Shown: piece by piece, positions 36,342 to 62,414 of the stretch | Layout: each line of letters begins with the position of its first letter | How positions within the stretch are numbered: position 1 is the stretch's first letter | DNA from: Reinekea forsetii | GTDB taxonomy: Bacteria; Pseudomonadota; Gammaproteobacteria; Pseudomonadales; Natronospirillaceae | Reading direction: 5' to 3' | Length of the DNA: 64,000 nucleotides | NCBI RefSeq assembly: GCF_002795845.1 | Contig: NZ_CP011797.1 | Location: 2,007,501 to 2,071,500 of the forward strand | The notes under the pieces: generated by a model | What the model saw: only the letters and a program-made list of their open reading frames with translations | Told to the model about the DNA's origin: nothing | Database searches by the model: none | Position numbers and translations under genes: made by a program

Positions 36342-36497
36342 CTAACCCTCTAGATAACGCTCCAGATTTCTAACTGATTTTAACTCGGATTTAAGTTTGG
36401 CAATCTCTAGTCGATCATCCGGTGATTGAACGTCTTTCGCTGTTCCCTGAATATCAGCCCGCCACTGATTCAACGTTTTTGTACCAGTCTTTCTCAG
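36342..36497 (-). pseudogene. Short coiled-coil-like remnant frame
   Basis: A 51-codon frame ending KSELKSVRNLERYLEG, hydrophilic with heptad-like spacing, and without an ATG. It begins at the very end of the ATP-grasp gene. The character recalls the C-terminus of a transposase helper or similar coiled-coil protein; identity is uncertain and chance is possible. Confidence 0.25.
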
Positions 36498-37768
36498 TAA
36501 ACGCCGAAGAAGTCGAGTTTAGCTCCTCGAGTTTCTAAAGGTTTACTAAAAGTAATTCGGTACCGTTCAATGATATCTTTTATGAGTTCAAGTTGATCAT
36601 TCTGGCTTTTCCCTTCAATTAAGAAAGTGCCACCAGTGTGAATATAGCCACCAGACTGATCAACGCGGTCGGCTTTCTGGGGCAACCTTGCCTCAATTAA
36701 GCCAGGCAACAACCCTTGCTTTGAGAATTCCACCGATTCAACCACGCAATGTTTAGCGGCTGGCACTGGGAACAGCAGCCAACCATACAAATGGTTGTTG
36801 GGCTGGCAGCTTTCGAGTCGCGGTATGTCTAAAAAACCATTCATTTGGAGCTTTAGATTTTCTTCAAACAAGCTGATGCCCCATCGTTTCTCAATACAAG
36901 GCGCCACAAACGCCCCACCGACCCTTGCGCCTACTTCCAGAAAACGAACCTCACCTTGCGTGTCTATGAAAAGCTCTAAGTGAAATGGTCCATTCGGCAG
37001 TTCAAGCGCGGCCAGTGCTTTTTCGGCAAATGCATTGAGTTTTTGCTGACGCTCTTCATCGTCCACCATCATTACGCCAACTGGTGAGCCGTTAGCAAAT
37101 GCATAGCAACTGTTGTAGTACTGATAAACCTGACAAAAGACGATTTTCAAGTCATTCATAAATCCATCAAGATGAAAAATGCTTCCAGAGATGAACTGTT
37201 CCGCTTCGTAATAGGGTAATTGGTCACCGATGTCTTTAAGGTCGGCATGCAACTCATTCTCGTCACAGGCTATCTTTACACCTTTGGAACTGGCGCCATC
37301 CAATGGTTTAAGAACCACGGGATAACCAAATTTCTCCACAATTTGCTGTGCGTTGTTTGCAACGGTAAATTCCGGTACCGCTATCTTTCTGTGTTGTAAG
37401 ATTTCTTTCATTAGAATTTTGTTACGAAACCGGGCCAATTCTGTTTCCCGGACACCGCCTATGTTCAGTTCATCACGTAACTGCGATGCCAGTAATATAT
37501 CTTCTTCATTGAGTGCGATAATCCTGTCTACCGGTTTCTGGGTACGCAAACGTCGAACCGTTTCCTTAATCAGATCTGAGAGATCCAACGACGGAAGTTC
37601 AATTATGTCGGCGTTTAGGTACTCTTCCTCATGCAAGCCCTGTTTGCTGTTTCCGTCAATAATGTAATGAACCTGATGTTGAGTATGGTCAATGACACCA
37701 TGGTAGTTTGTTTTCGGTGCATTCCAATTCCAGCCATAAAACCGACGATTGATAATAACAACATTCAT
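36494..37768 (-). CDS. ATP-grasp carboxylate-amine ligase
   Basis: A 424-residue ATP-grasp enzyme, a class that joins a carboxylate to an amine through an acyl phosphate. It shows a pre-ATP-grasp domain (1-110), an ATP-binding lid with FGYPVVLKPLDGASSKGVKI, the Mg-binding block GEVRFLEVGARVGGAF, and a C-terminal domain. The layout resembles stand-alone L-amino-acid ligases (BacD/YwfE type) and other natural-product amide ligases. It is the last gene of the 15-gene operon; its start overlaps the EamA stop (ATGA). In this cluster it is the likely final coupling enzyme. Confidence 0.85.
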   Translation of the reverse strand: MNVVIINRRFYGWNWNAPKTNYHGVIDHTQHQVHYIIDGNSKQGLHEEEYLNADIIELPSLDLSDLIKETVRRLRTQKPVDRIIALNEEDILLASQLRDELNIGGVRETELARFRNKILMKEILQHRKIAVPEFTVANNAQQIVEKFGYPVVLKPLDGASSKGVKIACDENELHADLKDIGDQLPYYEAEQFISGSIFHLDGFMNDLKIVFCQVYQYYNSCYAFANGSPVGVMMVDDEERQQKLNAFAEKALAALELPNGPFHLELFIDTQGEVRFLEVGARVGGAFVAPCIEKRWGISLFEENLKLQMNGFLDIPRLESCQPNNHLYGWLLFPVPAAKHCVVESVEFSKQGLLPGLIEARLPQKADRVDQSGGYIHTGGTFLIEGKSQNDQLELIKDIIERYRITFSKPLETRGAKLDFFGVY

Positions 37769-38721
37769 ACATCACCTCCTTTGATACTTTGCTTTCCAAA
37801 TGGGTTTCGAACTCTATTCGCGGCAGACTGAAGCGTTTGTACTGGTGTAATCACGAAAATCAATCCGGCAATGACAACCATAATGCCACCGATAATCGGC
37901 ACTGTAATGACTTCACCCAATAACGCACTTGATAGAATAAGTGCCGTCACCGGCATAACAACTGTAAAAACACCTGCTGTCGTGGCGTCTACTTTATCTA
38001 CCCCTCTAAACCACAACACAAATGAAATGATATTGACAAATACGGCTGTGTATACGATAAGCAACCAGTCACTGGCCTGAACTGAACTCAGGTCAAACGA
38101 ACGTAAGTCATAGAGACCTAAGGGCAAAAATAAGACGGCACCTATCACACACAAATACACATTGGAGGTGACTGGGTTTAATGCCTGATGGGTAAGCTTT
38201 TTCCGAAGCACCGTAAACAGTGCCTCACACACAACCGCTAACAGTACGAGGCCGATGCCAATCAACGCTTGCCAATTATTGCTCATCATTATTTCTGAAG
38301 ACTGACACAATGCGACGCCAACGACACATAGTCCAATGCCAGTAGAAACTACGACGCCCACTTTTTCACGCAGCATGACAATGGATAGCAGAGCAATCAC
38401 GACCGGGGTTAAGGCTATAAGAATTCCGGCCATTGACGCTGAAGACCAATATAGACCATAAAGAAAAAATACTCTAAACAACACCACGCCGAACAGAGTC
38501 TGCAAAAACAGATATTTGAATTGCGGCCAGTTTAGCACTGGTAGCCGACCAACGATGATCAGATGAATGGCTGTCATTCCGACGGCCGCCATTGACAAGG
38601 TCAGTACACTGGACAACATGACCGGAAAAATCTCGATCACTTTTTTTCCTACAACTGACAAGCTCCCGACGATCATCATCGCAAGAGTCAGCTCTATATA
38701 GGCTGTCGTTTTTAGGTTCAT
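37765..38721 (-). CDS. EamA/DMT-superfamily transporter
   Basis: A 318-residue membrane protein with ten predicted helices in two EamA repeats (PVVIALLSIVMLREKVGV; MPVTALILSSALLGEVITV). DMT proteins often export amino acids and metabolites. It lies between trpF and the ATP-grasp gene with 4-base overlaps on both sides, so it belongs to the biosynthetic operon and is a candidate exporter of the product. Confidence 0.87.
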   Translation of the reverse strand: MNLKTTAYIELTLAMMIVGSLSVVGKKVIEIFPVMLSSVLTLSMAAVGMTAIHLIIVGRLPVLNWPQFKYLFLQTLFGVVLFRVFFLYGLYWSSASMAGILIALTPVVIALLSIVMLREKVGVVVSTGIGLCVVGVALCQSSEIMMSNNWQALIGIGLVLLAVVCEALFTVLRKKLTHQALNPVTSNVYLCVIGAVLFLPLGLYDLRSFDLSSVQASDWLLIVYTAVFVNIISFVLWFRGVDKVDATTAGVFTVVMPVTALILSSALLGEVITVPIIGGIMVVIAGLIFVITPVQTLQSAANRVRNPFGKQSIKGGDV

Positions 38722-39356
38722 TTAGGGCTCCCATTAGTGGCACCACGAACTTCTTTTATGAAGGAAATTACTTTTTCAATCGATTTATGGCCGGGCTTTC
38801 CGTCTGCTTCGACGCCAGAACACACATCGACCACGGCGGGGTGCAATAGGCGTACGTGCTCGGAAACATTTGCGGGCGAAAGCCCCCCTGCCAACCAAGC
38901 TTTCGACAAGTTGATTTCTACTCCTGTATGCAGGTGCGTTCCCCAATCAAACGTTTCTCCATGCCCAGCGCCTGGGTCCAGTAAGTGAGCTTTTAAATTA
39001 CTGTGCTCAGTGCACTGCGATCTCTGTAACCACGTAAATGGGTGCAGGCGTTGTACAACTGGGCGATCCAGCAACTTCACAAGGTCACCGTCTTGTTCTC
39101 CATGCAATTGCACGATATCTACCGGAAACTCTTTCAGTATGGACTGTATGAACGTAAGCGATTGATTCATGAATACCGCCACAGATTTCGTTGCTTTGGG
39201 CACATGGTTCAACAGACCCAGACAGCTGCGTTCGGTTAGCTGCCGCTTTGACCCCTCAACAAATATAAAGCCCATATACTCAATACCCTGTTCGCCAAGG
39301 GCCACGACATCTTGCGGTTGCGTTATCCCGCAAACCTTTATGGCAACGTTATTCAT
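38718..39356 (-). CDS. trpF: Phosphoribosylanthranilate isomerase
   Basis: A 212-residue TIM-barrel enzyme converting phosphoribosylanthranilate to CdRP in tryptophan synthesis. The catalytic Cys is in KVCGITQPQDV, the catalytic Asp in LLDPGAGHGETFDW, and the phosphate loop in LAGGLSPANV. ATG 39356 matches the family N-terminus and overlaps the trpA end by 8 bases; the frame extends 19 codons more within trpA. The order trpB-trpA-trpF is within a larger non-trp operon. Confidence 0.92.
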   Translation of the reverse strand: MNNVAIKVCGITQPQDVVALGEQGIEYMGFIFVEGSKRQLTERSCLGLLNHVPKATKSVAVFMNQSLTFIQSILKEFPVDIVQLHGEQDGDLVKLLDRPVVQRLHPFTWLQRSQCTEHSNLKAHLLDPGAGHGETFDWGTHLHTGVEINLSKAWLAGGLSPANVSEHVRLLHPAVVDVCSGVEADGKPGHKSIEKVISFIKEVRGATNGSPK

Positions 39357-40149
39357 AAGCCGAAATCTCACGTAAAAATACGGCCGCATTGTCAATGGCG
39401 GATTCTGGCTCACTGATTTGTTTGATCAACGCGCTTCCGACAATGACCCCGTCGACATTTTTTGCTGCCTGAGAGACCTGTTCCGCGTGACCAATACCAA
39501 ACCCCAACGCGATTGGTGTATCGGTATATTGTCGAATACGTGCGCACAGTGACGCCACATTATCGGGTACATTTTGTCGTTGCCCGGTGACACCAGTAAC
39601 CGATATGAGGTAGATAAACCCACTGGCGCTTTGGGCGATTTTCTTGATTCTTTCGTCGGACAGATTAGGAGCAACGAAGTGAATAAGGTGAATATGTGCG
39701 TTGTCCAACAAAACTTTTAACGTCTTACTTTCTTCCAATGGTAAATCCGGCACGACCACTCCACGTACGCCAACGAATCGACACTTTTCAACAAAGTGCT
39801 CTAATCCCATTTGCAGCAATATGTTGTAATAGGTCATGATCACCAACGAGGCCGTGCACTCGCTATCGGCGTATCCGGTCAAAATTTCGAAGGTTTTTTC
39901 AGGCGTCATTCCCCGCTCCAGCGCGGCCTGCGATGATGCTTGTATCACAGGCCCATCGGCTAGCGGATCACTGTAGGGAATGCCAACTTCGATAATGTCT
40001 GCGCCGTTATCAGACAAGGTTTGCAGCAAACGCAACGACAGGTTTTCTTCGGGATAACCCATAGTCAAAAACGGCATGATCGCGGCTCGATGCCTTTTCT
40101 TAGCGTTGATAAATGCCTGGTCAAGTTCATTTATAAATTGTGCTTTCAT
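39349..40149 (-). CDS. trpA: Tryptophan synthase alpha subunit
   Basis: A 266-residue TIM barrel that splits indole-3-glycerol phosphate into indole and glyceraldehyde-3-phosphate. The catalytic Glu54 and Asp65 lie in EVGIPYSDPLADGP, and loop 6 is VTGVTG. All key residues are present, so it should be active. It overlaps trpB by 4 bases. It should pass indole to TrpB through the inter-subunit tunnel. Confidence 0.95.
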   Translation of the reverse strand: MKAQFINELDQAFINAKKRHRAAIMPFLTMGYPEENLSLRLLQTLSDNGADIIEVGIPYSDPLADGPVIQASSQAALERGMTPEKTFEILTGYADSECTASLVIMTYYNILLQMGLEHFVEKCRFVGVRGVVVPDLPLEESKTLKVLLDNAHIHLIHFVAPNLSDERIKKIAQSASGFIYLISVTGVTGQRQNVPDNVASLCARIRQYTDTPIALGFGIGHAEQVSQAAKNVDGVIVGSALIKQISEPESAIDNAAVFLREISAYE

Positions 40150-41393
40150 TTGGCATCCCCGTGTTGGCTTCGCTCGAATATCGCCATCATATCTTTATCG
40201 CCGCGACCACTGATGTTAACAATGACGCGATCCTGTTCGTTGAATGTCGTTGAAAGTTGCACGAGACCGGCAATGGCGTGGGCACTTTCTAATGCTGGTA
40301 TAATGCCTTCCGTTCGGGTTAAAAGCTTAAGACCCGCCAGGGCTTGTTCATCATCTGCACTGTAGTATTCTGCACGCCCCTGTTGCCACAGTTGCGCATG
40401 CTCTGGACCGACCATGGCGTAGTCAAGTCCGGGTGCAATACTGTGTGTTTCCTGAATCTGACCTTCCGCATTTTGCAAAACAAAGGAATAGCATCCCTGT
40501 AGGACGCCCGGCTTTGGTTGAACACCCTTGGCAAGTCGAACCGAATGCTGGCCAGATTCAATTCCTTTGCCTGCGGCTTCGATGCCAATCAACCGCACTG
40601 ACGGTTCGTCAATGAAGGTATGAAACAAGCCAATCGCATTGGAACCGCCACCGACACAAGCCACCACTGCCGTAGGCAACTCACCCGGGAACTTAGATTG
40701 AAATGCTTGCTTTGCTTCAATACCGATTATTTTTTGAAACTCACGGACAATTTTCGGGTATGGGTGGGGTCCTAATGCAGACCCTAACAGGTAGTATGTG
40801 TTGTCAACGTTAGTCACCCAGTCGCGAATAGCTTCGTTAATAGCGTCTTTCAGTGTTTTCGTCCCATTTTCAACCGGGACAACTTTTGCACCAAGCAATT
40901 CCATGCGAAATACATTGAGCTTTTGACGCTCTACGTCGACTGACCCAATATAGATAGTACAGTCCAGTCCCAGTAAAGCGCATACGGTCGCGGTGGCGAC
41001 ACCATGTTGACCTGCGCCGGTTTCCGCTATGATACGATGCTTTCCCATGCGTTTTGCGAGCAATGCCTGACCCAGTGCATTGTTGATTTTATGTGCTCCG
41101 GTGTGGGCGAGGTCTTCCCGCTTTAACCAGATCTGAAACCCAAGTTCATCCGATAGGTTTTTCGCATAAGTTAACGGTGTCGGACGTCCCACATATGTTG
41201 CCAACAAATTAGAGAGTTCGTCGCGGAAATCGGCCTGTTGTGTAATTGCCTCTATTTGACGGATTAACTCATCAATGGCCGGCATTAAGGTTTCTGGAAT
41301 AAAACAGCCGCCATAGGCATCATAATACGCGCTCATGTCACTGAAACTCGCGTAACCTTTTTCACTGGGTGTTAACTGTTGTTGTTTAGTCAT
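40146..41393 (-). CDS. trpB: Tryptophan synthase beta subunit
   Basis: A 415-residue PLP enzyme joining indole and serine to tryptophan. The PLP lysine is Lys102 in HTGAHKINNALGQ; the catalytic Glu block is AETGAGQHGVATA and the phosphate cup is CVGGGSNAIG. It is slightly longer than the usual 395-400 because of an N-terminal extension. It belongs to the alpha-dependent TrpB1 type by sequence and context. It overlaps the B3/B4 gene upstream by 8 bases and trpA downstream by 4. Confidence 0.95.
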   Translation of the reverse strand: MTKQQQLTPSEKGYASFSDMSAYYDAYGGCFIPETLMPAIDELIRQIEAITQQADFRDELSNLLATYVGRPTPLTYAKNLSDELGFQIWLKREDLAHTGAHKINNALGQALLAKRMGKHRIIAETGAGQHGVATATVCALLGLDCTIYIGSVDVERQKLNVFRMELLGAKVVPVENGTKTLKDAINEAIRDWVTNVDNTYYLLGSALGPHPYPKIVREFQKIIGIEAKQAFQSKFPGELPTAVVACVGGGSNAIGLFHTFIDEPSVRLIGIEAAGKGIESGQHSVRLAKGVQPKPGVLQGCYSFVLQNAEGQIQETHSIAPGLDYAMVGPEHAQLWQQGRAEYYSADDEQALAGLKLLTRTEGIIPALESAHAIAGLVQLSTTFNEQDRVIVNISGRGDKDMMAIFERSQHGDAK

Positions 41394-42087
41394 GTTTATC
41401 TCGAATCATTTCTAAGTTATGGACGGCTCGCATGAGCCCTGTCACTGTATCATCACGACTCACACCCGGAACCTGACAAGCTAACAGCCAAACCGTTTTG
41501 GTTTTTTCGCTGATAGCCTGTGCCTGGCTGTCGCGTACGGAAAATATTGAGAGTATTTTTTTTTGGTCACGCAACACCATTAAACCGTCAGCCAATTCCT
41601 CGGCTTTCTCCGCACCGAGGCCTAAAAAGCTTTCTCCTGCACGGCTGAAGCTCAATTGAAGTTCACCTTCGACACAAGCAGCGTCGAATACGCCCAAAGA
41701 TACTTCTGTTTGCAGTGCAGCCACATTGACTGCGTCGACAATCGGGTTAATACGCGGTAAGCGCGGTGCCTCGTTAGTCAGACATCGCGTAATCAGATTT
41801 GCGACGGACGGCGGATTTTTTTTGACTTTCAATCCGAGGGCCGTCATAAACTCAGCGTATGGCTGTTGCTTTACTGAATTGAGTACGTCACTGCGTGACT
41901 TGCCGATCCAGCGTTGGTGCAATTGCTCGATTTCCGCTTCCCAACTGACATTGGTCAGTGTTTCAAATGATAATTTGACACCCAACACGTGAACACCTGG
42001 GAAACGTTTCGCCACCGTTTCTGAATTTGAAATAGTGAGGGGATTCACCGTCATTGTCGGCCTGCTTTGAGTCATATCAACTGTCAT
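41386..42087 (-). CDS. Free-standing B3/B4 domain protein (PheRS-beta editing-domain family)
   Basis: A 233-residue protein matching the B3/B4 domain found in the phenylalanyl-tRNA synthetase beta chain, where it hydrolyses mischarged tRNA. The diagnostic blocks are NPPSVANLITRCL, LPRINPIVDAVNV and LGVFDAACVEGELQLSFSRAGE. Free-standing copies are poorly characterised and may edit mischarged tRNA in trans. It lies directly before trpB (8-base overlap) in the biosynthetic operon, so it may protect the producer from misincorporation of the product or an analogue. Confidence 0.8.
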   Translation of the reverse strand: MTVDMTQSRPTMTVNPLTISNSETVAKRFPGVHVLGVKLSFETLTNVSWEAEIEQLHQRWIGKSRSDVLNSVKQQPYAEFMTALGLKVKKNPPSVANLITRCLTNEAPRLPRINPIVDAVNVAALQTEVSLGVFDAACVEGELQLSFSRAGESFLGLGAEKAEELADGLMVLRDQKKILSIFSVRDSQAQAISEKTKTVWLLACQVPGVSRDDTVTGLMRAVHNLEMIRDKHD

Positions 42088-42544
42088 TCTTTCCCTCCAA
42101 CGACCGTGCTTCAGTCATGGTCCCATCATTGAAAGAAATGCGCTGCGCTAGCGTTAACTCTAAGTCAGTCGCGCAGAGAAGCGTCTCCGTTTCAATTAAA
42201 ATATTGTAGTGATTTGGAAAGTGACAGTCATCGAAGCCTGCTATAGTTCCGATGACGTTGCCGTTGACCGTAACATGATCTCCTCTTTCAAGAACACCGG
42301 CATTCAAAATTTCAACAAACCCAAGAAAGCCCACTTGGTCAACGCGATCACCGGTAGCCAACGACTTGTGAGTGGTTGTCACCAGCTCATGAACTTCCCC
42401 GGTTCGCACACATCGGGAGGCAAATTCAATAACCGTCATTCCACGACTTTCTTGTTTGTGGAACAGCTTTTTAACAACCTGGCTTTGAACGTCCGTTTTC
42501 AACGCCTCGGTCTCTTGATGCGTTGTTGATTCAGACGACTGCAT
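42077..42544 (-). CDS. Unrecognised 155-residue protein
   Basis: Not recognised. After a polar N-terminus (about 35 residues) comes a beta-rich domain: TVIEFASRCVRTGEVHELV, DRVDQVGFLGFVEILNAGVL, HVTVNGNVIGTIAGFDDCHF, NHYNILIETETLLCATDLEL. The strand pattern suggests a small beta-barrel, perhaps a binding or scaffold protein. Start ATG 42544 overlaps the Gfo/Idh stop by 14 bases; a second ATG at codon 36 is possible. It is wholly embedded in the operon between the oxidoreductase and B3/B4 genes. Confidence 0.6.
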   Translation of the reverse strand: MQSSESTTHQETEALKTDVQSQVVKKLFHKQESRGMTVIEFASRCVRTGEVHELVTTTHKSLATGDRVDQVGFLGFVEILNAGVLERGDHVTVNGNVIGTIAGFDDCHFPNHYNILIETETLLCATDLELTLAQRISFNDGTMTEARSLEGKNDS

Positions 42545-43463
42545 GAGTTACTTCCTGTTCATCTATCTGATAACAATGATTCACCAGTGCAACAGCAGCT
42601 TGCCCTTCTTCCCCTTGACCCCGATTTTCTTGAATATGCACAGCGAAGTCGTCAATAACCCGAGCGTATTCATGAAACAAAGACGACTTAAATGATACGC
42701 TTCCTTGCAACATATCACCGGTCAACTGTCGCCCATCCTTCATTGTGTAAACCACACGCTTGTCTTCGCCATGTGGGTATGCCCAATCCAAATACGTTGT
42801 CGCGGTCAGGCCTTGATCGTTGCGCAGTTCAACCTCTGCTTCGATGTCGATATTCCGATCGTCGCGGACAATGGACGCGCGAGTGACAGACAGAGGACCG
42901 ATCAACCACGCAAGGGTATCAAATGCGTTAGGGCCATTGTCGGCTACGCATCCACCACCACATTTGGTTGGGTCTAAATACCAGGTGTCGTTACCGGCGT
43001 GATCTTCTATTTTTTCGTTATAATATAAATCGACTTGAGCCACCTCGGACAAAGGTCCAACTTGAGATTTCAGATCAATTAACGGTTGATTGTATCGTCG
43101 ATGGAATGCGGTAAAGAGTGTTTTACCCGCCTGTTTTGACGTGTTTTGCAAGATTATGGCTTCTTCCATATTCAGTGTCAGTGGCTTTTCACAACACACA
43201 TGCTTACCCTTTAAGAGCGCTTCCCGACACACATCAAAATGCAAATCGTTCGGTAAATTAATAACCACGGCTTCTACATTCGGATCGTTTAATAATGATC
43301 GGTATTCTTGATAGACACGAACATCCGTTTTTGAAAATGGATCTGTTTTTTCCGTCTGCAAATCGCAAACAGCTGTAAGCTTCGCTGTGCGCGACTCTGG
43401 AAACGCCGAAATGTAATATTTGGCGATTACGCCGAGGCCGATCACACCGATTTTAATCATCAT
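42531..43463 (-). CDS. Gfo/Idh/MocA-family oxidoreductase (second copy)
   Basis: A 310-residue NAD(P)-dependent dehydrogenase. Rossmann motif GVIGLGVIAKYYISAF, then the family motif CCEKPLTLN with its catalytic Lys, and a beta-sheet C-terminal domain (GGGCVADNGPNAFDTLAWLI; the His/Asp pair of sugar dehydrogenases is partly replaced by Asn and Asp). Members oxidise hydroxyl groups on sugars, cyclitols and their phosphates. It overlaps the Ldh_2 gene by 4 bases. Confidence 0.87.
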   Translation of the reverse strand: MMIKIGVIGLGVIAKYYISAFPESRTAKLTAVCDLQTEKTDPFSKTDVRVYQEYRSLLNDPNVEAVVINLPNDLHFDVCREALLKGKHVCCEKPLTLNMEEAIILQNTSKQAGKTLFTAFHRRYNQPLIDLKSQVGPLSEVAQVDLYYNEKIEDHAGNDTWYLDPTKCGGGCVADNGPNAFDTLAWLIGPLSVTRASIVRDDRNIDIEAEVELRNDQGLTATTYLDWAYPHGEDKRVVYTMKDGRQLTGDMLQGSVSFKSSLFHEYARVIDDFAVHIQENRGQGEEGQAAVALVNHCYQIDEQEVTHAVV

Positions 43464-44536
43464 AATTCCTCCAATGGCATCATTTGGTGACTGGCAGCAT
43501 ACTCATTCAATTCTTTGAAAATCGTTACAGGTATTGGAATTCCCCGTTCTGCACGCTCAGCCCGGTTGTCATTATCTGGCTGTCCGGCATACTGCAGGGT
43601 GTCGAAGCCATCGAACGTTGGGACCGACAAATAGCCATCCAACATCTGCGCCATGGTTTGTTTAAATTCACTGGCAGGCATGAACGACGGTATGTTCATT
43701 ACCAGAAAGAAATGCCCTACTTCATTTGTTTTGCCTTTCTGCCCAACCATTGGAACATCCGCTCCGGCTAAGACACCGCTCAGAATTTCAACCATAAGAT
43801 TCAATCCGAATCCTTTATGACCTCCCGATGACTTTTTCCATCCCCCCAAACCGGGCAAATAAGCGGTGCCATTAAAGTAGGCTTCTGGATTTGAAACAGG
43901 TTCTCCCTTGTCATTACATAACCAATCTCCAGATACGTCGGCGTTTCTTGCATTCGCTTGTTTGATCTTGCCACTAGCACAGACCGTGGTACTCATGTCC
44001 AATAAAAAATTCGGCATGTTAGCGACAGGTGCTGCAAATGAAATTGGGTTTGTACCAAGAATAGGTTGTCGACTTCCCATCGCGTGAGCAACAGGGTCTG
44101 AACCTAAGTTGGTCATGGCCATACCGATCATGTCTTCCGCAAGTGCCATTTGAGCGTAATACCCTGCTGCACCAAAATGAGTACTGTTGCGGACACAAGC
44201 AATTCCGACACCATATTGTTTTGCTTTGTCCATGGCCATCTGCATTGCGTAATGACCTGCATTTAAACCAAGCATTTGATGCGCGTCCAGAGTGACGACA
44301 GCACCTTGATCACGCAATACTTCGATTTCTGCCGTACGACTTATGACACCTTCACTCAATCCCTTCACATAAAGTGACATTAAGTTAAGTACGCCATGCG
44401 TGTCCAAGCCTGCAAGATCGGCATACGACAATGTTGCTGATGCCTGCTTCGCCCTTTCTACATCAACACCTTCGTTGATCAGTGCAGTTTCTACAAAATG
44501 TCTTAACGGCTCAGCCGCTACAAGAATATCATTCAT
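43460..44536 (-). CDS. Malate/L-lactate dehydrogenase family (Ldh_2) oxidoreductase
   Basis: A 358-residue enzyme of the Ldh_2/MDH2 fold, which reduces 2-oxoacids or cyclic imines with NAD(P)H and is unrelated to classical LDH. It has the N-terminal DLAGLDTHGVLNL (catalytic His), ACVRNSTHFGAAGYYA, LGTNPISFAAP and GGHKGFGLNLMVEIL. Relatives include delta-1-piperideine-2-carboxylate reductase and ureidoglycolate dehydrogenase. In this cluster it probably reduces a 2-oxo intermediate or imine. Confidence 0.88.
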   Translation of the reverse strand: MNDILVAAEPLRHFVETALINEGVDVERAKQASATLSYADLAGLDTHGVLNLMSLYVKGLSEGVISRTAEIEVLRDQGAVVTLDAHQMLGLNAGHYAMQMAMDKAKQYGVGIACVRNSTHFGAAGYYAQMALAEDMIGMAMTNLGSDPVAHAMGSRQPILGTNPISFAAPVANMPNFLLDMSTTVCASGKIKQANARNADVSGDWLCNDKGEPVSNPEAYFNGTAYLPGLGGWKKSSGGHKGFGLNLMVEILSGVLAGADVPMVGQKGKTNEVGHFFLVMNIPSFMPASEFKQTMAQMLDGYLSVPTFDGFDTLQYAGQPDNDNRAERAERGIPIPVTIFKELNEYAASHQMMPLEEL

Positions 44537-44545
44537 CTCTTATCC

Positions 44546-45856
44546 TTAAGCTGTTGGGATCTTTGCCTGTACGCGAGTGCGTTCAGGCAATGTAAATTCG
44601 TGATTGAACTGTGCGAGTAGTTGCACGATTGATTGACTGAAGCTTTCTAATTCATGAATGGAAATAAACTCGTCCGCGGTATGAGCTCCGTTCTCTTCCA
44701 GTGACCCAGGACCATACATGATGGAATAGGCGTCATGTTGCTGGCCCCACATTGCATCACAGGTAAAAGTTCGTTCATTATGTTTGTGTCGATTGATGCC
44801 AGCCCGATTCAACAGCGACTCTAATCTATGATCTCGGTTATCCAACACAGGCAAGCCTTTCTTAAGCCACCGGTACGTTAACGAGGTCGACAGCTGATCT
44901 ATCGTGCGTTTAAACAAGGGAATGCCAGAAAAATCGCTCACGAATTTCGTCACCGCTTGATCATAGGCGCTACCGAATGCCTGCTCAGTTAGCTGCCCAT
45001 CTTTTTGTAAACGATAGGAAAAGTTCATAAGCAGCTTGCCTTGGCCGTAAACACGGTTATGCATGCTCCCAGTGTGTAATCCAGCCACCGTCATTTTAAC
45101 TTGATGTTTTTCCAGCTCAGGGGCCAGTGTTTTGCTAATTGATGTTGCCATCGCCGAGAGTAATAAGGTTGCATTGACAGCTGCTGATGGGCTGTCGTCT
45201 GTTGCGCTGTTGCCATCAACATTTATCTCAACAGTCATTGATGACGTAGAGGAATCAAAGTATTGACCTTCCGAAGGTATGACGAAGACATTTAAAGCAC
45301 CATAGTAACTTTGGTCAAAAAGCATCCTTGTTCCATAAGTGCCCATCGCACCACCTTCCTCACCACCCACGACCTGTATTAGAATACCAATGCGCTGCGG
45401 TTTGTCGTTTTTTGCCAACCAGCGATCAATGGCGGCGAGAACGGCGACACCTGGTCCCTTGTTGTCAACCACTCCACGCCCTTCAATTCGATCTGTAGTT
45501 TGTTTTACGGGCAGTACCGGCCCAACGGTATCCATATGAAAGTTAAACATTATGGTACGTTCTCGGTTACGCCAATCCCCCAAGCCAAGCACCATTGACG
45601 GCTGGTTTGGAAAAAAAGGTGCCCCAACCTCTTGAACCTTTCGGCGTACTGAGGCTGGTAACTTATTGCTGTCTTGGCCGATAACTTCTGTTACCACCTC
45701 AAATCCCAATGCGACAGCCGCTTGAGTAAACTCCATATTTGCTTTGCTAAGATCTGACAGTGTTCCAGTTTCCATTGGAGAAACGGTATCTATCTCCAGG
45801 AGTCGAAGCAGTAGTTCCTGGTAGCTTGGCGTCAACACAGAATGAGCCATTTTCAT
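44546..45856 (-). CDS. M20-family metallopeptidase/amidohydrolase (ArgE/DapE-like)
   Basis: A 436-residue zinc hydrolase. Metal and catalytic motifs are intact: FNFHMDTVG (His and catalytic Asp), GVVDNKG (bridging Asp), VVGGEEGG (catalytic Glu and ligand). A dimerisation domain is inserted in the middle. M20 enzymes remove acyl or peptide groups from amino acids. It overlaps the TIM-barrel gene by 4 bases. In a biosynthetic operon it may deprotect an intermediate or hydrolyse the amide product. Confidence 0.88.
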   Translation of the reverse strand: MKMAHSVLTPSYQELLLRLLEIDTVSPMETGTLSDLSKANMEFTQAAVALGFEVVTEVIGQDSNKLPASVRRKVQEVGAPFFPNQPSMVLGLGDWRNRERTIMFNFHMDTVGPVLPVKQTTDRIEGRGVVDNKGPGVAVLAAIDRWLAKNDKPQRIGILIQVVGGEEGGAMGTYGTRMLFDQSYYGALNVFVIPSEGQYFDSSTSSMTVEINVDGNSATDDSPSAAVNATLLLSAMATSISKTLAPELEKHQVKMTVAGLHTGSMHNRVYGQGKLLMNFSYRLQKDGQLTEQAFGSAYDQAVTKFVSDFSGIPLFKRTIDQLSTSLTYRWLKKGLPVLDNRDHRLESLLNRAGINRHKHNERTFTCDAMWGQQHDAYSIMYGPGSLEENGAHTADEFISIHELESFSQSIVQLLAQFNHEFTLPERTRVQAKIPTA

Positions 45857-46737
45857 ATTGCTACCTCGGCAAAAGTTTTCGCACGTGATAGGTCGTTTTT
45901 TGCTTGCTGCAGCAATTCCAACGCTGCCTGCCCGTAAGCAATGTAATGTTCATTAATACCGTCAACATCCAGTTGGCGCCCTCCTTCATGTGCAATCATG
46001 TCAATATGGGGCTCGATGGAGAAGAGTCCGTTATAACCTAGCTTCAGTAACTGCTTAATGTTTTCGAGAAGGTGGACTGCACCCTTGCCTGGAAAGCAAT
46101 AATCGATTTTGCCATTGGCAGTGCGAACGGCATCTTTGATATGCACATGTGCGATCGAGTCAAAGCAGGATGTTATAAAATCTTCAGGCGCATTTTGATA
46201 GGCTGGACCATTACCGAGATCTAACAACAACTGTAGCGATGGAGACGTTATTTCCTTGAGCATTATTTGTGTATTCTGTGCGTCGATTCCTGCCCAACCT
46301 GTACAGTTTTCGTGAAGGAGAACCAACCCACCTTGCGCAGCTCTGGCGGTTAGTCTTGTCAACCGTTCTAACACCCGATCCCGCCATTCATTGATTTCCA
46401 GGTAACCTTGCAGGTATGACATTACGCGTATGTGGCGACTACCGACGAAATGACTTAAATCAATCAGCCGTGCAAGCTCATCTTCTTCTTGTTCTAAGTC
46501 TGTATCGATCGATCGTTGCCAGTTGCCAATTCGAGAGGCTAGGCAATTAACTTGCAGCCCGGCGTCCGCTAATTGCTTGGCGACTGATTTTGCCAATACA
46601 CCGCTAAGTTCATCCACGGGCATCCCGTCGATATTCCGAAGCTCCATAAACTGCCAATTCAATTGTTGATGTGCATCAATCTGCTGTGTCAGGTTTCGAC
46701 CCGCTTCATCTGCGAGGCCAGATAAACGCTCAAGCAT
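45853..46737 (-). CDS. Sugar phosphate isomerase/epimerase-like TIM barrel (xylose isomerase-like)
   Basis: A 294-residue TIM barrel of the AP-endonuclease-2 / xylose-isomerase-like family. Metal-site blocks are LVLLHENCTGW (Glu), LLLDLGNGPAY (Asp), SIAHVHIKDAV (His) and GLFSIEPHID (Glu). Such proteins isomerise or epimerise sugars, inososes and hydroxy-keto acids. It lies between the second DegT gene (3-base gap) and the M20 gene (4-base overlap). It probably acts on the polyol-like part of the pathway. Confidence 0.85.
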   Translation of the reverse strand: MLERLSGLADEAGRNLTQQIDAHQQLNWQFMELRNIDGMPVDELSGVLAKSVAKQLADAGLQVNCLASRIGNWQRSIDTDLEQEEDELARLIDLSHFVGSRHIRVMSYLQGYLEINEWRDRVLERLTRLTARAAQGGLVLLHENCTGWAGIDAQNTQIMLKEITSPSLQLLLDLGNGPAYQNAPEDFITSCFDSIAHVHIKDAVRTANGKIDYCFPGKGAVHLLENIKQLLKLGYNGLFSIEPHIDMIAHEGGRQLDVDGINEHYIAYGQAALELLQQAKNDLSRAKTFAEVAI

Positions 46738-46740
46738 TGG

Positions 46741-47880
46741 TTACCCTTTATATGATTGTAAAGCAATAACGACCGACTCAACTTGCGTATCGGTAAGTTC
46801 CGGATAAATCGGTAGGGCGATCGCCTGTTGAGCAATTGTTTGCGAATTTGGGAAGTCATCGTCGATTTTTCGCCAATCAGCAAAGGCAGGTTGATCCGGC
46901 AATGGGTCGGGAAATCCGCGTTTACTTTCTATCCCTTCTCTCCGTAGATGGTCAGCTAATGCTTGAGGGGATTCTGTTAAAAGTACGTAGCTGTATGGGA
47001 CGTTCTTCACGTCACCAAGTGAAATATCACTCTGCTGACGACGCCAGCCCAATCTATCAATAACCGCATCGTACTGTTCAACAATCGCGTTTCGACGCTG
47101 ATTCTGTTCTTCCAACTTGGTAAGTTTCTGCATCAGATAGGCTGCATTTATGTCGTCCATACGACTGTTATAACCCAAAACAAAATGGGTGAAACGGACT
47201 TGCCCATCTTGCCCATGATTGCGGTACATTGCGCATTTTCGATGTAACAATTTGTCATGTGTCACTAACATACCTGCGTCACCTAACCCACCTAGCGGCT
47301 TAGCCGGGAAGAAGGAGTACACACCAACATCTCCGATCAGTCCCGTGGGTGTTCCGTTAACACTGCCACCCAAGCAAGTAGCGCTGTCTTCTACTATCGA
47401 GATTGATGCAGGTAATTTAGATTTTAACGCCGCAACGTCCATTACTTGTCGATACAGGTGAACTGCAATAACAGCCTTCGTTCGTGAGGTGATTTTACAC
47501 AAGACAGTTTCACTGTTTAGCATGAAGTCATTCTTGTTTACGTCCACGAATATTGGTGTGGCTCCGACCGATACAATTGCACTCGCCGTTGAAACATATG
47601 AGTATGCAGGAGTGATGACTTCATCTCCTGGACCTATGCCCAACGCTTTTAATGCGATGACCATACCCATTGAAGCTGAACTGACAGCAGCACAATGGAC
47701 AGCTTTCTGAGTTGAATTGTGAAGTTGCAGATACTCCGCGATTGCCTTTTCAAATGAAACGACTGAATCTTTCAGTATAAACTGCCCTTTGGCACAGTGC
47801 GCCTCTATGAGTTCAGGCAGCCTATCTGGCAATGATTTGTATCTCTCGACATAGTTAAAAAATGAGATGGTCATGTCCAA
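46741..47880 (-). CDS. DegT/DnrJ/EryC1/StrS aminotransferase, second of a tandem pair
   Basis: A 379-residue PLP aminotransferase of the secondary-metabolite sugar group. The PLP Lys is at about residue 194 in YSFFPAKPLGGLGDAG, the PLP-ring Asp in IVEDSATCLGG, and the cofactor pocket in VITPAYSYVSTASA. Family members aminate keto-sugars or inososes, usually from glutamine or glutamate. It is directly adjacent (0-base gap) to a paralogue. Two tandem copies could form a heterodimer or aminate two positions. Confidence 0.92.
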   Translation of the reverse strand: MDMTISFFNYVERYKSLPDRLPELIEAHCAKGQFILKDSVVSFEKAIAEYLQLHNSTQKAVHCAAVSSASMGMVIALKALGIGPGDEVITPAYSYVSTASAIVSVGATPIFVDVNKNDFMLNSETVLCKITSRTKAVIAVHLYRQVMDVAALKSKLPASISIVEDSATCLGGSVNGTPTGLIGDVGVYSFFPAKPLGGLGDAGMLVTHDKLLHRKCAMYRNHGQDGQVRFTHFVLGYNSRMDDINAAYLMQKLTKLEEQNQRRNAIVEQYDAVIDRLGWRRQQSDISLGDVKNVPYSYVLLTESPQALADHLRREGIESKRGFPDPLPDQPAFADWRKIDDDFPNSQTIAQQAIALPIYPELTDTQVESVVIALQSYKG

Positions 47881-48999
47881 TTACTCCTTATAGAAATTTT
47901 GTATACATTGAACAATGTCATCAAGTTGATGCTGCTGCATTTCTGCATGCATTGGCAATCCCAAAGCACAGGTAGAAGCTTTTTCAGCTACTGGGAAATC
48001 GCCCTGGCGGTACCCTAAGTGTCGACAGATGGGCTGCATATGCAGAGGGATTGGGTAATAGGTTTCTGTTGTAATTCCTGCTAGTGCTAAGTGTTGAGCC
48101 AAAGCATCACGGTTATCTACCTCAATTAGATACACATAATCAACCCGATTTGCGTCATACCCACGACTGTTGAATATTGGCGTTTTTACCATTGGTGCTT
48201 GTGCGTTCAGACTTGTCGTTAGATAATCAGAATTTGCTGACCTTGCTTGTATGTTTTCCTCTAAAACCGAGAACCGGGACCGTAAAACCATCGCGTGCCA
48301 CTCGTCCATTCGGCTATTAAAGCCAATTCGCTGAGCGATACCGGATTCGTCCCGCCCTAAATTACCAAGCTGTCGGCAAGCTTTCGCAAATTTGTCGTTG
48401 TTTGTGAGTATCATGCCTGCGTCACCGAGCGCCCCAAGTGTTTTAGTTGGAAAAAAAGATAAAACCCCACCTAAGCCGAAACCGCCTGCATGCACACCAT
48501 TTTGATACATTCCAATGGCTTCGGCACTGTCTTCAAATATCAACAACTGATGCCGTTCAGCAACCTCCCGGATGCTCGGCATGTCTGCCATTTGACAAAA
48601 CAAATGGACAGGCATGATCGCTTTCGTTTTAGGCGTTATTGCTGCTTCTATGGAAGTTGAATTCATGGCATAGGATTCCGCCTCGATATCTACAAACACG
48701 GGTGTCGCGCCAACATGTAATATGCAGGAAACCGAAGCAAAAAAGGAATAACAGGGAACGATAACTTCATCGCCAACCCCGACTCCCGCAGCGGTTAGGC
48801 CGATAATGAGAGCATCGGTACCATTGCCAACCGCGATCGCATTTTTGATTCCGGTAAACTGTTCCATTTCTCGTTCAAAGCTATCAACCTGGCTTCCATT
48901 TATGAGTTCGGTCTGCTGTATAATTTCCTTAAGTTGTGCTTTCCACTGTTGCTGGAAAAACATAATTTCCTGCTGATTTTCATAGAATGGTACAGCCAT
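47881..48999 (-). CDS. DegT/DnrJ/EryC1/StrS aminotransferase, first of a tandem pair
   Basis: A 372-residue PLP aminotransferase. The PLP Lys is Lys186 in SFFPTKTLGALGDAGMI; the ring Asp is Asp157 in FEDSAEAIG; VIVPCYSFFASVSCIL lines the pocket. All catalytic residues are present. The start overlaps the oxidoreductase stop by one base (TAATG). It is clearly related to, but not a recent duplicate of, the next gene. Typical substrates are keto-sugars or scyllo-inosose-like compounds. Confidence 0.92.
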   Translation of the reverse strand: MAVPFYENQQEIMFFQQQWKAQLKEIIQQTELINGSQVDSFEREMEQFTGIKNAIAVGNGTDALIIGLTAAGVGVGDEVIVPCYSFFASVSCILHVGATPVFVDIEAESYAMNSTSIEAAITPKTKAIMPVHLFCQMADMPSIREVAERHQLLIFEDSAEAIGMYQNGVHAGGFGLGGVLSFFPTKTLGALGDAGMILTNNDKFAKACRQLGNLGRDESGIAQRIGFNSRMDEWHAMVLRSRFSVLEENIQARSANSDYLTTSLNAQAPMVKTPIFNSRGYDANRVDYVYLIEVDNRDALAQHLALAGITTETYYPIPLHMQPICRHLGYRQGDFPVAEKASTCALGLPMHAEMQQHQLDDIVQCIQNFYKE

Positions 49000-50063
49000 T
49001 AGGCGGTTTCCTTTAAGGACATTTCGGTCATAGGGTGACAGTTAACTTGAGTTCCTGAGCGTACGGATATATTTTTAGCGGCCTCAAGAATCTCAACTTT
49101 TTGCTCATTGAATCCGAGGTCCATTCCCGCAGGGCGGATCACTGAAAAGTTTTGCTGGCTCGCAATAAAGTACTGATAGGCTCTGATAAAACACAAGGTG
49201 AGAGGGTCATCTTCTATCAGTTGGTCTGAGTACAAAGTGCCAGTGGGTGTCACAATGGTTAACCGAGAGTAACTATCATCACCTCCAGACGGAAAGGCTA
49301 CCTCTATTCTGTGACCGGTTGAAGTGAGCACATTGAGATAACGTTCCCTGGATGTGTGTATTAAACTGGAATGAAGCTGCGAAGTGATTCCATTGTCATG
49401 CCGCAGTGTCAGATCACCTTTGCCTAAATTCGGAATCACCATGTCCGGCATAATCATGTCTGATACTTGTGCCGACTCAACCACAGCAGCCCCACCCAAA
49501 TACAGAGCTAGTGCGACTTGATGAGGCATTTCGATGTCGAATACGTGCTCACCACAGCGTTGTCGGGAGCGCATAAAGCGTGATTTATTCTGCACCACGG
49601 TAATATGACTAAGACGACCAAAGGCCTCGGAGTCCAGTAGCTCCTTTGCTTTAGTCACAGCGGCACTGCTTACCCAATTAGCAACGACCAGAATTTTAGC
49701 GCCATAGAACCGCTCTAGCGCTTTTAATTGCAATAGTTGCTCACGAGTCGAGACGGCTGGCTTCTCAACAATGATTTGGCGATACCCGCAATTTAATGCT
49801 GTCTTAATATTTTCAAAGTGTGAGGATGGTGGAGAACAGACATGCAATACGCAATACGCAGAATCTTCCTTGCTTATTGGCTGCAGTGCCGTCTGGAAAA
49901 GAACATTCTCGTATTCGATTTTTGCTCTTGGCTGCGCGTTGTCGATAGCAACGACCCCAGGATTAATAACATTACTCCAACCCATATCACGCATTTTTGA
50001 GATACAGTGATGATGCAAACTACGCCCAGCGAATCCATATCCGATGATTAATATTTTTAGCAT
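48999..50063 (-). CDS. Gfo/Idh/MocA-family oxidoreductase (first copy)
   Basis: About 354 residues. The Rossmann motif is ILIIGYGFAGRSLHHH, the family Lys motif is QIIVEKPAVSTREQ, and a C-terminal alpha/beta domain follows (CGEHVFDIEMPHQVALALY). Start ATG 50063 fits the Rossmann N-terminus with AGG 6 bases upstream; the frame opens 10 codons earlier. It probably makes the keto group that the DegT enzymes aminate. It follows trpC after 62 bases, the largest gap in the operon. Confidence 0.85.
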   Translation of the reverse strand: MLKILIIGYGFAGRSLHHHCISKMRDMGWSNVINPGVVAIDNAQPRAKIEYENVLFQTALQPISKEDSAYCVLHVCSPPSSHFENIKTALNCGYRQIIVEKPAVSTREQLLQLKALERFYGAKILVVANWVSSAAVTKAKELLDSEAFGRLSHITVVQNKSRFMRSRQRCGEHVFDIEMPHQVALALYLGGAAVVESAQVSDMIMPDMVIPNLGKGDLTLRHDNGITSQLHSSLIHTSRERYLNVLTSTGHRIEVAFPSGGDDSYSRLTIVTPTGTLYSDQLIEDDPLTLCFIRAYQYFIASQQNFSVIRPAGMDLGFNEQKVEILEAAKNISVRSGTQVNCHPMTEMSLKETA

Positions 50064-50125
50064 ACGATACCTGCATTCCTTTGTTCGTATCACCTACTGC
50101 CTAAAAGGCGATTCAAAACCTTGAT

Positions 50126-50902
50126 TTAATCCATCATTATTTCGGAAATTTTCCCTGGAATATCTTCTTGACAAATAATGGACTCACCAATCAGCATGGC
50201 ATTAAAACCAAGTGACTCCATGAAAAGAACATCCTCTCGAGTGTGGATACCACTTTCACTGACTGTGATTATATTATCTGGAATTAGCTCCATAAGCCGG
50301 CGTGTTTTCTCAAAATCGGTTTTAAACGTATCAAGATCCCTATTGTTAATACCAATAATCTCTGCACCGGCCTCAAGTGCTCTTTTAACATCAGATTCGT
50401 CGAATGTTTCAACCAAAGCGGACATTCCCAATTCATGCGTTTTCGCGATCAGATCTTTCAGTGTGTTTTGATCGAGTATTCGGACGATGAGTAACACCGC
50501 ATCGGCATTAGAAGCACGAGCCTCATACAACTGATATTCCGAGGCAATAAAATCTTTAAACATCACCGGTACAGATATATCTGAGTTACTCGCGATGGAG
50601 CGTACAATTTCTGAACTTCCCGCAAAAAAATGCTCATCCCCCAAAACCGATATCGCGCTTACACCGGCCTTTTGATAGAGCTTTGCGATTTCAAGATGAT
50701 TAAAGTTTTCTTTTAGAATTCCTTTCGAAGGTGATTTCTTTTTTACTTCCGCAATCAATGAAATATTAGCACCGGAAAGTGCGTGCTTGAAATTTCTGGG
50801 CGACCTTGCTTTTTTAATTTGCTGCTTAAGCTGTGAAATAGTCAATTGCTTTTCTTTACTTTCCGTTTCATGTTTTTTGTATGCGACAATATCATCTAAC
50901 AT
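50126..50902 (-). CDS. trpC: Indole-3-glycerol phosphate synthase
   Basis: A 258-residue TIM barrel that closes the indole ring. Catalytic residues lie in LIAEVKKKSPSKG, VMFKDFIAS, LVETFDESDV, IGINNRDLDTF and VSESGIHT; all are present. It is the monofunctional form, with trpF separate at the other end of the operon. AGGA precedes the ATG by 7 bases. It is the first gene of the 15-gene operon, 38 bases after a near-consensus promoter. Confidence 0.95.
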   Translation of the reverse strand: MLDDIVAYKKHETESKEKQLTISQLKQQIKKARSPRNFKHALSGANISLIAEVKKKSPSKGILKENFNHLEIAKLYQKAGVSAISVLGDEHFFAGSSEIVRSIASNSDISVPVMFKDFIASEYQLYEARASNADAVLLIVRILDQNTLKDLIAKTHELGMSALVETFDESDVKRALEAGAEIIGINNRDLDTFKTDFEKTRRLMELIPDNIITVSESGIHTREDVLFMESLGFNAMLIGESIICQEDIPGKISEIMMD

Positions 50903-50946
50903 TTATCACGTCCTTTTAAGTTAGTTTTCTAAATCTCAATGAGCGA

Positions 50947-50975
50947 TTAATATGAGCAATACATAACCATGTCAA
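50947..50975 (-). promoter_or_regulatory. Near-consensus sigma-70 promoter of the biosynthetic operon
   Basis: On the minus strand a perfect -35 TTGACA (50970-50975), 17-bp spacer and -10 TATTAA (50947-50952). Transcription should start near 50940, giving a leader of about 38 bases before trpC. There is no Trp leader peptide or attenuator in so short a leader. The IS-like element starts 18 bp upstream of the -35 and leaves the promoter intact. Confidence 0.7.
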
Positions 50976-50992
50976 ATACAATATCTTTCAGA

Positions 50993-51983
50993 AGGGCACC
51001 TCTATTAACTCGCTTTTACCCAGCGTTATTATTCGTTGTTTATTAATATTTCCGTAGGCACCATATTTTTGCGTAATTTACCGTTTTTAGTTCAATAAAG
51101 CTCAAAAACGACCTTTTAATGGCCTATTTTCGTTCATTTAGCAAATAACGGACGCACCTCTCCTTTGAAGACTGACCATTCGTCTCATATTGTAAGCCAA
51201 GTTCATCAGGCCAATTTTGACGGCCGCTCGTGTGTGGCCAATGGTTCGAACAAACATTCCGCCTTGTTCATTTTCCATCGATCCAAATACATGTTCAACA
51301 CGAGCACGCGTCTTGGATTTCTTGCTGTTCATTTCTTGTTGTTTGACTGACAACGGCTTATTACGTCGGGCCTTTTTATGAACCTTGTTACGGTAACCCG
51401 ACGCATAAAGTTCCAATGTACTCGCTTCACTTTGATAGGCGCTGTCTGCCCATACATCGGCCGAACTGTTGTCGGCTAGCAATTCGATAAAGACCTGACT
51501 GTCGTGAACTTCTGCAGAGGTGACATCATAGTCACGGATCAATTTGTTTTCATTATCGATGGCGACATGCACTTTATATCCAAAGTGAACTTCATTATTC
51601 TTCTTGGTCCACCGGGCATCAACGTCTTTCTGGCTGGCTTTATGGTTGTTTTCCGCAAAGCTTTCGGGGGTAATGCCGGCTTTAATGTCTTTGTTTTCTT
51701 CACGGGTATTACGTTGTCTGGGAGCTTCAATAAAACTTGCATCGACAATTTGGCCTTTGCGCGCCGCGAGGCCCTTCAGTTGCAGTTGATATTCAAAACC
51801 ATGAAATAACTGCTTAACGATACCCTTTTTAGTCAGCCGCTCCCGAAATAACCAGATTGTTTTGGCATCGGGTACCCGATCCTCGGGCATCAATCCCAGA
51901 AATCGACAAAAGCTATACCGGTCTCGGATCTGAAATTCAGATTGGTCATCGCTGATGTTGTAGAGACTCTGGAGAGGTGCCCT
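50993..51983 (-). mobile_element. Decayed IS5-family insertion sequence
   Basis: A 991-bp segment bounded by a perfect 11-bp inverted repeat: AGGGCACCTCT at 50993-51003 and AGAGGTGCCCT at 51973-51983. It contains a minus-strand IS5-type transposase reading frame that lacks its N-terminus. The right repeat abuts coding sequence for LQSLYNISDD, so an internal deletion has removed the 5' part of the transposase. No target duplication was evident. Confidence 0.7.
51138..51983 (-). pseudogene. IS5-family transposase, N-terminally truncated
   Basis: The frame reads SLYNISDDQSEFQIRDRYSF, then MPEDRVPDAKTIWLFRERL and a DDE domain: Asp in QIVDASFIEAPRQR, Asp in DVWADSAYQSE, Glu in RARVEHVFGSME. Catalytic residues are intact, but about 60-75 N-terminal residues (DNA-binding part) are gone and no proper start remains; ATG 51893/51890 would give about 251 residues. 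It is likely inactive. Confidence 0.8.
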
Positions 51984-59203: not shown

Positions 59204-59205
59204 GT

Positions 59206-60678: not shown

Positions 60679-60680
60679 GC

Positions 60681-62411: not shown

Positions 62412-62414
62412 AAA

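Follow-up and report, generated by a model that had tools for sequence, protein, structure and literature searches.

The 64,000-nucleotide stretch of the Reinekea forsetii chromosome analysed here (the window; positions 2,007,501 to 2,071,500 of contig NZ_CP011797.1) carries a 15-gene minus-strand operon, running from trpC to an ATP-grasp ligase (36494-50902), which is probably a trp-type secondary-metabolite cluster, one that would combine an amino-sugar-derived unit with dedicated tryptophan or indole. At its centre lies a conserved cassette marked by the protein family DUF6917, which recurs elsewhere in two flavours that exchange their partner genes, for tryptophan in one and for prenyl in the other. 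A sequence-only reading of this DNA had proposed an unknown biosynthetic cluster making and exporting a tryptophan- or indole-based amide; its biosynthetic look holds up, with dedicated trp copies beside a conserved amino-sugar-type cassette, and the amide and export steps, as described below, do not stand as defining features. The literature searched gave no title or abstract describing this gene set, most subscription papers lying outside the search, so that 'undescribed' means here not found by us; nor did it mention DUF6917, and we found neither a description nor a described product for the family of DUF6917 cassettes. If the product of one member were worked out, DUF6917, the free-standing B3/B4 proteins and a separate group of TrpBs would all become understandable in chemical terms.

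The DUF6917 cassette and its two flavours

In the phylum sample, DUF6917 was present in one of 398 genomes, the window's own, and a tblastn search of plasmids returned 2 of 72,556 records; a scan of genome contigs gave 197 relatives, the best 80 of which provide the loci counted below (71 Actinomycetota, 7 Bacillales, one Pseudomonas and one Algicola; gene presence at E<=1e-8). The cassette consists of eight genes, Gfo1-DegT1-DegT2-TIM-M20-Ldh2-Gfo2-DUF6917, and the 80 loci hold tim in 76 cases, m20 in 75, ldh2 in 78, gfo2 in 79, degT1 and degT2 in 70 each and gfo1 in 69. Sixty-three loci are at least 15 kb long: tim, m20, ldh2, gfo2 and duf6917 are all present in 62 of these and stand in that order in 61, the exception being Nocardia anaemiae, while degT1 and gfo1 are additionally present in 55. 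The window operon shows the same order. Because this block is shared by many unrelated genomes, the grouping of the operon goes beyond chance, and both the conservation in other taxa that the sequence-only reading had asked about and the amino-sugar-type enzymes it had named are borne out by the relatives. Streptomyces violens (L036, L051) and S. ochraceiscleroticus (L054, L069) each have two separate DUF6917 loci; among viral contigs 12 stretches fitted a pattern and none was a DUF6917 relative.

In 15 of the 80 loci trpA, trpB and a B3/B4 gene occur together, and none of the three is found in the other 65; the window operon, with all three beside its cassette, is of the trp type. The 65 non-trp loci hold a UbiA-family gene (37), a polyprenyl synthase (11), DXS (11) or LytB (8), at least one of these four prenyl genes being present in 49 of the 65 and in 0 of the 15 trp-type loci. 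DXS and LytB were considered as self-resistance genes and rejected as such, since polyprenyl synthase and UbiA in the same flavour point rather to prenyl supply. Eight of the 15 trp-type loci and 36 of the other 65 encode a nucleotide-sugar dehydrogenase; the one from Paenibacillus pini has as its best PDB matches a hypothetical UDP-N-acetylmannosaminuronate dehydrogenase and Cap5O. Some trp-type regions carry extra trp genes, namely trpD in one Bacillus, one Paenibacillus and Pseudomonas, and trpE with trpG in Streptomyces noursei and Pseudomonas, so that the Pseudomonas region has all seven, trpE to trpA. A GntR-aminotransferase regulator lies close to the trp end in S. noursei and in Bacillus sp. 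WMMC1349. The bacillimidazoles of the latter host were tried as a product and rejected, since their formation from tryptamine, phenethylamine and butanedione seems, from the available part of the source, to be spontaneous (PMC8779896); gromomycins (PMC12105684) and zigralones (PMC13307353) were rejected as matches because the genes given in the available parts of those sources are different.

In a tree of the cassette core (76 rows, short search, simple model, with a long-branch warning), the non-trp rows fall into one group (59 of 60, N. anaemiae being the exception; SH-like approximate likelihood ratio support 100), and the 16 trp rows lie on one side of a branch with a support of only 29. 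The N. anaemiae locus (L016:7062-18866) has a rearranged cassette with an ATP-grasp gene, a nucleotide-sugar dehydrogenase and a Y_phosphatase3 protein, and neither trp genes nor any of the four sought prenyl genes; it is possibly a third flavour.

Dedicated trp genes and a separate TrpB group

Four genes of the operon belong to the tryptophan pathway: trpC (50126-50902; indole-3-glycerol phosphate synthase, PF00218, E 2.3e-79), trpB (40146-41393; tryptophan synthase beta, PF00291), trpA (39349-40149; tryptophan synthase alpha, PF00290, E 1.2e-85) and trpF (38718-39413; phosphoribosylanthranilate isomerase, PF00697, the real start probably lying downstream of the listed GTG). The motifs checked in all four products are intact. 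The genome (3.66 Mb, one contig) has a second copy of each, trpA at 115.8 kb (G000:C1:115809), trpB at 114.5 kb, trpC at 414.9 kb (G000:C1:414890) and trpF at 2141.9 kb (G000:C1:2141858) of the chromosome, so the operon is not a plain trp operon, and its trp genes are dedicated rather than the organism's only copies. The other trpBA pair (L097:9512-13937; about 114.5-119 kb of the chromosome) stands just before TssB/TssC-like type VI secretion genes, by our reading of the open reading frames (ORFs), which is an odd place for housekeeping trp genes.

All 15 trp-type genomes likewise encode at least two TrpBs. The operon TrpB is 82% identical to that of the matching operon in Algicola sagamiensis and 51% identical to the TrpBs of six other genomes of the genus, which have one each (E<=1e-60). 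A tree of 59 TrpBs was built from 16 cluster proteins and 43 others (the second TrpB of the window's genome, 14 additional ones from hosts of the clusters and 28 from relatives); the 16 lie on one side of a branch and the 43 on the other (95/79, not starred), a split recovered in 98% of bootstrap trees, with 0 of 500 shuffles as low, whose support drops to 87/53 when two long rows are kept. With those two rows kept, the cluster TrpBs of Streptomyces and Bacillales join (100/99) and the other TrpBs of the same hosts fall elsewhere; in the 59-protein tree, the operon TrpB does not group among the housekeeping TrpBs of its host lineage. Three positions set the cluster proteins apart among 61 aligned TrpBs (16 cluster, 45 others; window numbering). 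All 16 cluster proteins have Pro at position 321, where 44 of the 45 others have Ala; this site precedes by three residues Asp324, which is nearly invariant and which we take to be the active-site Asp305 of Salmonella TrpB. At position 96 the cluster proteins have Thr (12) or Ala (4) and 43 of the 45 others Asn, and at position 272 Gln is found in 13 of the 16 (Glu in the window), against Glu in every one of the 45 others.

The cluster was probably acquired horizontally. Its G+C content is 0.44-0.48, that of the first 30 kb of the window 0.45-0.55 and that of the DNA to its right 0.40-0.46, and upstream of the operon are genes for a DDE transposase (51138-51893) and an integrase (53738-54679); composition and mobility genes together are weak pointers to a mobile island that extends beyond the operon.

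A proposed pathway and its alternatives

For the substrates, the order of steps, the joining and the product we infer the following route. Gfo dehydrogenases and DegT aminotransferases build amino-sugars via keto intermediates, and the starting compound would be a nucleotide-sugar, likeliest UDP-N-acetylglucosamine or its uronic acid. Its oxidation to a keto-sugar would fall to the Gfo enzymes, the divergent Gfo/Idh/MocA dehydrogenase Gfo1 (48999-50093; PF01408, E 4.4e-9; weak PDB matches including WbpB) and Gfo2 (42531-43463; PF01408; best PDB matches 3e18 and DgpA), and the keto-sugar would be transaminated by DegT1 (47881-48999) and DegT2 (46741-47880). Both of these are PF01041 proteins whose closest solved relatives are scyllo-inositol (inosose) and amino-sugar transaminases, with scyllo-inositol transaminase, QdtB and WbpE among the PDB matches of DegT1. 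The catalytic motifs of the operon enzymes checked are intact, including EKP in Gfo1 and the pyridoxal-phosphate-lysine motifs FFPTK in DegT1 and FFPAK in DegT2. A TIM-barrel epimerase/lyase-like protein (45853-46737; PF01261) might then rearrange the transaminated sugar, enzymes of such a fold being known to epimerise or eliminate at keto-sugars. Its model (predicted local distance difference test score, pLDDT, 93.9) has 325 PDB matches at E<=0.001, the nearest folds being D-tagatose 3-epimerase, IolE, UlaE, AsbF and the 3-keto-glucoside 4-epimerase YcjR, and on this modelling the protein resembles keto-sugar epimerases, YcjR included; Glu143, Asp173, His197 and Glu242 are kept in every protein of a 44-row alignment (that of the window plus 43 of the 77 extracted). 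The deacylase/peptidase-like M20 metallo-hydrolase (44546-45856; PF01546), which had no PDB sequence match at 1e-6, would strip an acyl group, and the Ldh_2 oxidoreductase (43460-44536; PF02615, E 1.9e-99) would carry out a reduction. Enzymes of this family act as reductases of 2-oxo acids or of cyclic imines, and the PDB matches here are malate, sulfolactate and ureidoglycolate dehydrogenases. With a core step of unspecified kind assigned to DUF6917, the output of the cassette would be a small amino-polyol or cyclic amino-acid unit.

The DUF6917 gene itself (42077-42544; PF21891, E 1.3e-52), which the sequence-only reading had left as an unknown and which is assignable to this Pfam family, encodes a small protein predicted with confidence to be all-beta (pLDDT 90.6, with 54 rows), whose model has no Foldseek match at E<=0.001 in the PDB or in the viral BFVD. 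A PTS glucitol IIA-like identity was rejected on these grounds and because Pfam gave DUF6917 alone. Invariant in those 54 rows (the window and 53 of the 80 loci) are Arg34, Arg44, Cys45, His52, Glu53, Asp105, Cys107, His108, Asn111 and His112, of which Cys45, His52 and Cys107 lose their invariance once the two plasmid relatives are added. On a Streptomyces plasmid DUF6917 is fused to a DXS-like enzyme (L012:19977-22304) in a row that reads Gfo, sugar isomerase, M20, Ldh, Gfo and the fusion gene, and in Thermomicrobium it is flanked by a gene of the proline racemase family on one side and one for a thiamine-pyrophosphate enzyme on the other (L013:10731-14134); the fusion and these neighbours make a functional link to thiamine enzymes possible.

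In the trp flavour, trpC, trpF, trpB and trpA would feed tryptophan, or indole, to the pathway, to be combined there with the amino unit, which in the other flavour would be joined to prenyl. Some members would also gain an amide through the ATP-grasp enzyme, and export would be the task of EamA or MFS pumps. The free-standing B3/B4 protein (41386-42087; PF03483, E 1.8e-21) may serve the tryptophan branch, either by joining the two parts or by guarding against mischarged tRNA; it and TrpB are candidates for the joining step, being, with TrpA, the only tested genes present in 15/15 trp-type loci and 0/65 others.

That the trp genes raise tryptophan supply and nothing else, with ATP-grasp coupling tryptophan to the amino unit in a dipeptide-like amide, was the view of the sequence-only reading and seems to us unlikely, though it has a precedent. 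The calcium-dependent antibiotic cluster is a peptide-synthetase cluster. According to the available part of the source, it (BGC0000315) holds the additional trp copies trpC2, trpD2 and trpE (PMC5270213); the present operon is like it in this respect and unlike it in having a DegT/Gfo/TIM cassette as partner and in including trpA and trpB. The ATP-grasp ligase of the window (36494-37768; PF13535, E 7.5e-12) is a relative of amino-acid ligases; the models for dapdiamide synthase and D-Ala ligase hit it with scores far short of their cut-offs. Of 12 trp-type genomes tested, 7 have a similar gene within the cluster region, and three further trp-type loci have a match at the locus edge, which also speaks for such coupling; but 5 of the 12 lack it in the cluster, the nearest relative, Algicola, among them (at 1e-10 none in Algicola, Halalkalibacter or Pseudomonas, and in two Bacillus genomes only outside the cluster). 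As the gene is optional, the amide is not the core of the family. The EamA transporter (37765-38721; PF00892 in two stretches) has matches in only 6 of 15 trp-type loci, a different EamA gene lying a few kb from Pseudomonas trpE and MFS genes occurring in Paenibacillus and S. noursei loci; judged by gene content, both steps would be tailoring. A second small cluster on the same chromosome, about 20 kb past the right end of the window (L099:186-5604), has on ORF reading ATP-grasp-like genes (two matched in the search) together with MFS-like, GNAT-like and partial cysteine-synthase-like genes, and looks like a dipeptide-type pathway.

The same optional ATP-grasp implies that some members need other joining chemistry, and one form of it, which we hold to be decidedly unlikely, is a tryptophan-analogue pathway in which TrpB bonds indole to a sugar-derived beta-hydroxy amino acid from the cassette, replacing serine, and B3/B4 clears the mischarged tRNA. 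The substitution at 321, so near Asp324, the change at 96 and the strict co-occurrence of B3/B4 with the trp type are what such a pathway would lead one to expect; against it, the checked TrpB motifs are intact and only three positions passed the cluster-specific filter. Moreover, in 12 aligned B3/B4 proteins (the window and 11 of the 15 loci) Gly and Leu occupy the positions of the PheT His and Glu that are presumably its editing residues, so ordinary editing of the phenylalanyl-tRNA synthetase type is doubtful. It is tempting to extend the idea to a phylum-spanning scheme, which we regard as a long shot, in which the amino unit of one cassette is joined to prenyl in the UbiA flavour or to indole in the trp flavour, TrpB being retuned for a C-C bond to the unit instead of serine and B3/B4 guarding tRNA against the tryptophan analogue. 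A catabolic or cell-surface sugar operon with trp genes inserted by chance is very improbable: Gfo, TIM, DegT and Ldh_2 enzymes are known also from sugar breakdown and polysaccharide synthesis, but 15 loci, spread over several phyla, combine the cassette with trp genes and B3/B4 and share their own TrpB group, and the operon lacks glycosyltransferases as well as ABC and PTS uptake systems.

Known systems resemble the cluster in parts. WbpA, WbpB and WbpE form a diamino-uronic acid pathway with a nucleotide-sugar dehydrogenase, Gfo and DegT, and the likeness extends to Gfo and DegT, with WbpE and WbpB among the PDB matches, and to the dehydrogenase found in many relatives. Unlike that pathway, the operon has no nucleotide-sugar 6-dehydrogenase (8 of the 15 trp-type loci do) and no glycosyltransferase, and adds TIM, M20, Ldh_2, DUF6917 and trp genes. 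The 3-keto-glycoside pathways (YcjS/YcjR, DgpA) pair a Gfo dehydrogenase with a TIM-barrel keto-sugar enzyme, as the operon does, and DgpA and YcjR are among its matches; it differs in having two aminotransferases and trp genes, and identity is low. The NTD/kanosamine operon is defined by DegT, Gfo and a HAD phosphatase, the last of which had no Pfam match among the 15 operon genes. The prenyl flavour recalls the ebo operon, where the available part of the source places a UbiA-family gene with a xylose-isomerase-like gene and gives the product as not known; ebo has a sugar phosphate cyclase, and DegT, DUF6917 and trp are not among the six ebo proteins listed there (PMC5133447).

Several points weigh against reading the operon as a cluster that joins an amino-sugar-derived unit to tryptophan or indole. 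By Pfam, its genes include no nucleotide-sugar dehydrogenase, glycosyltransferase, non-ribosomal peptide synthetase or identified joining enzyme, and the trp genes might only boost supply. Sixteen of the 65 non-trp loci have none of the four prenyl genes, and Gfo1, a divergent protein, is unmatched at 1e-8 in the six Streptomyces trp-type loci. The association of trp with B3/B4 may have arisen once, in an ancestor, rather than 15 times independently, and the 95/79 support of the TrpB split is suggestive, compatible with one origin and not proof of it. The locus counts rest on the best 80 of the 197 relatives, with ORFs of high-GC loci from rough calling, and the loci end at 10 kb flanks or contig ends, so that genes counted as absent may sit beyond. 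Composition says little about whether the operon itself was transferred, since low G+C continues to its right and further dips occur at 18-22 kb.

Operon layout and neighbouring genes

All 15 genes named by the sequence-only reading were found as one tight same-strand operon, with their families confirmed by Pfam. All junctions but one range from a 65-bp overlap (trpA/trpF, counted from the longest possible trpF start) to a 9-bp gap, in keeping with the tight spacing it had reported; its single 62-bp gap, between trpC and Gfo1, is 32 bp if Gfo1 begins at GTG and 62 bp only from an in-frame ATG 10 codons on. The promoter that it had read upstream of trpC, TTGACA-17-TATTAA, is there to be read but was not reported by the promoter scanner, whose rule demands T as the final -10 base, and it carries little weight, as passing sites arise also in shuffled regions (1.3 per region). 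Rfam gave no match reaching the gathering score within 33000-56000. Elsewhere in the window, a SoFic-like Fic-domain protein is encoded at 32954-34033, and HsdS-, HsdM- and HsdR-like genes, on ORF reading, make 57986-63824 resemble a type I restriction-modification island, accompanied by the integrase at 53738.

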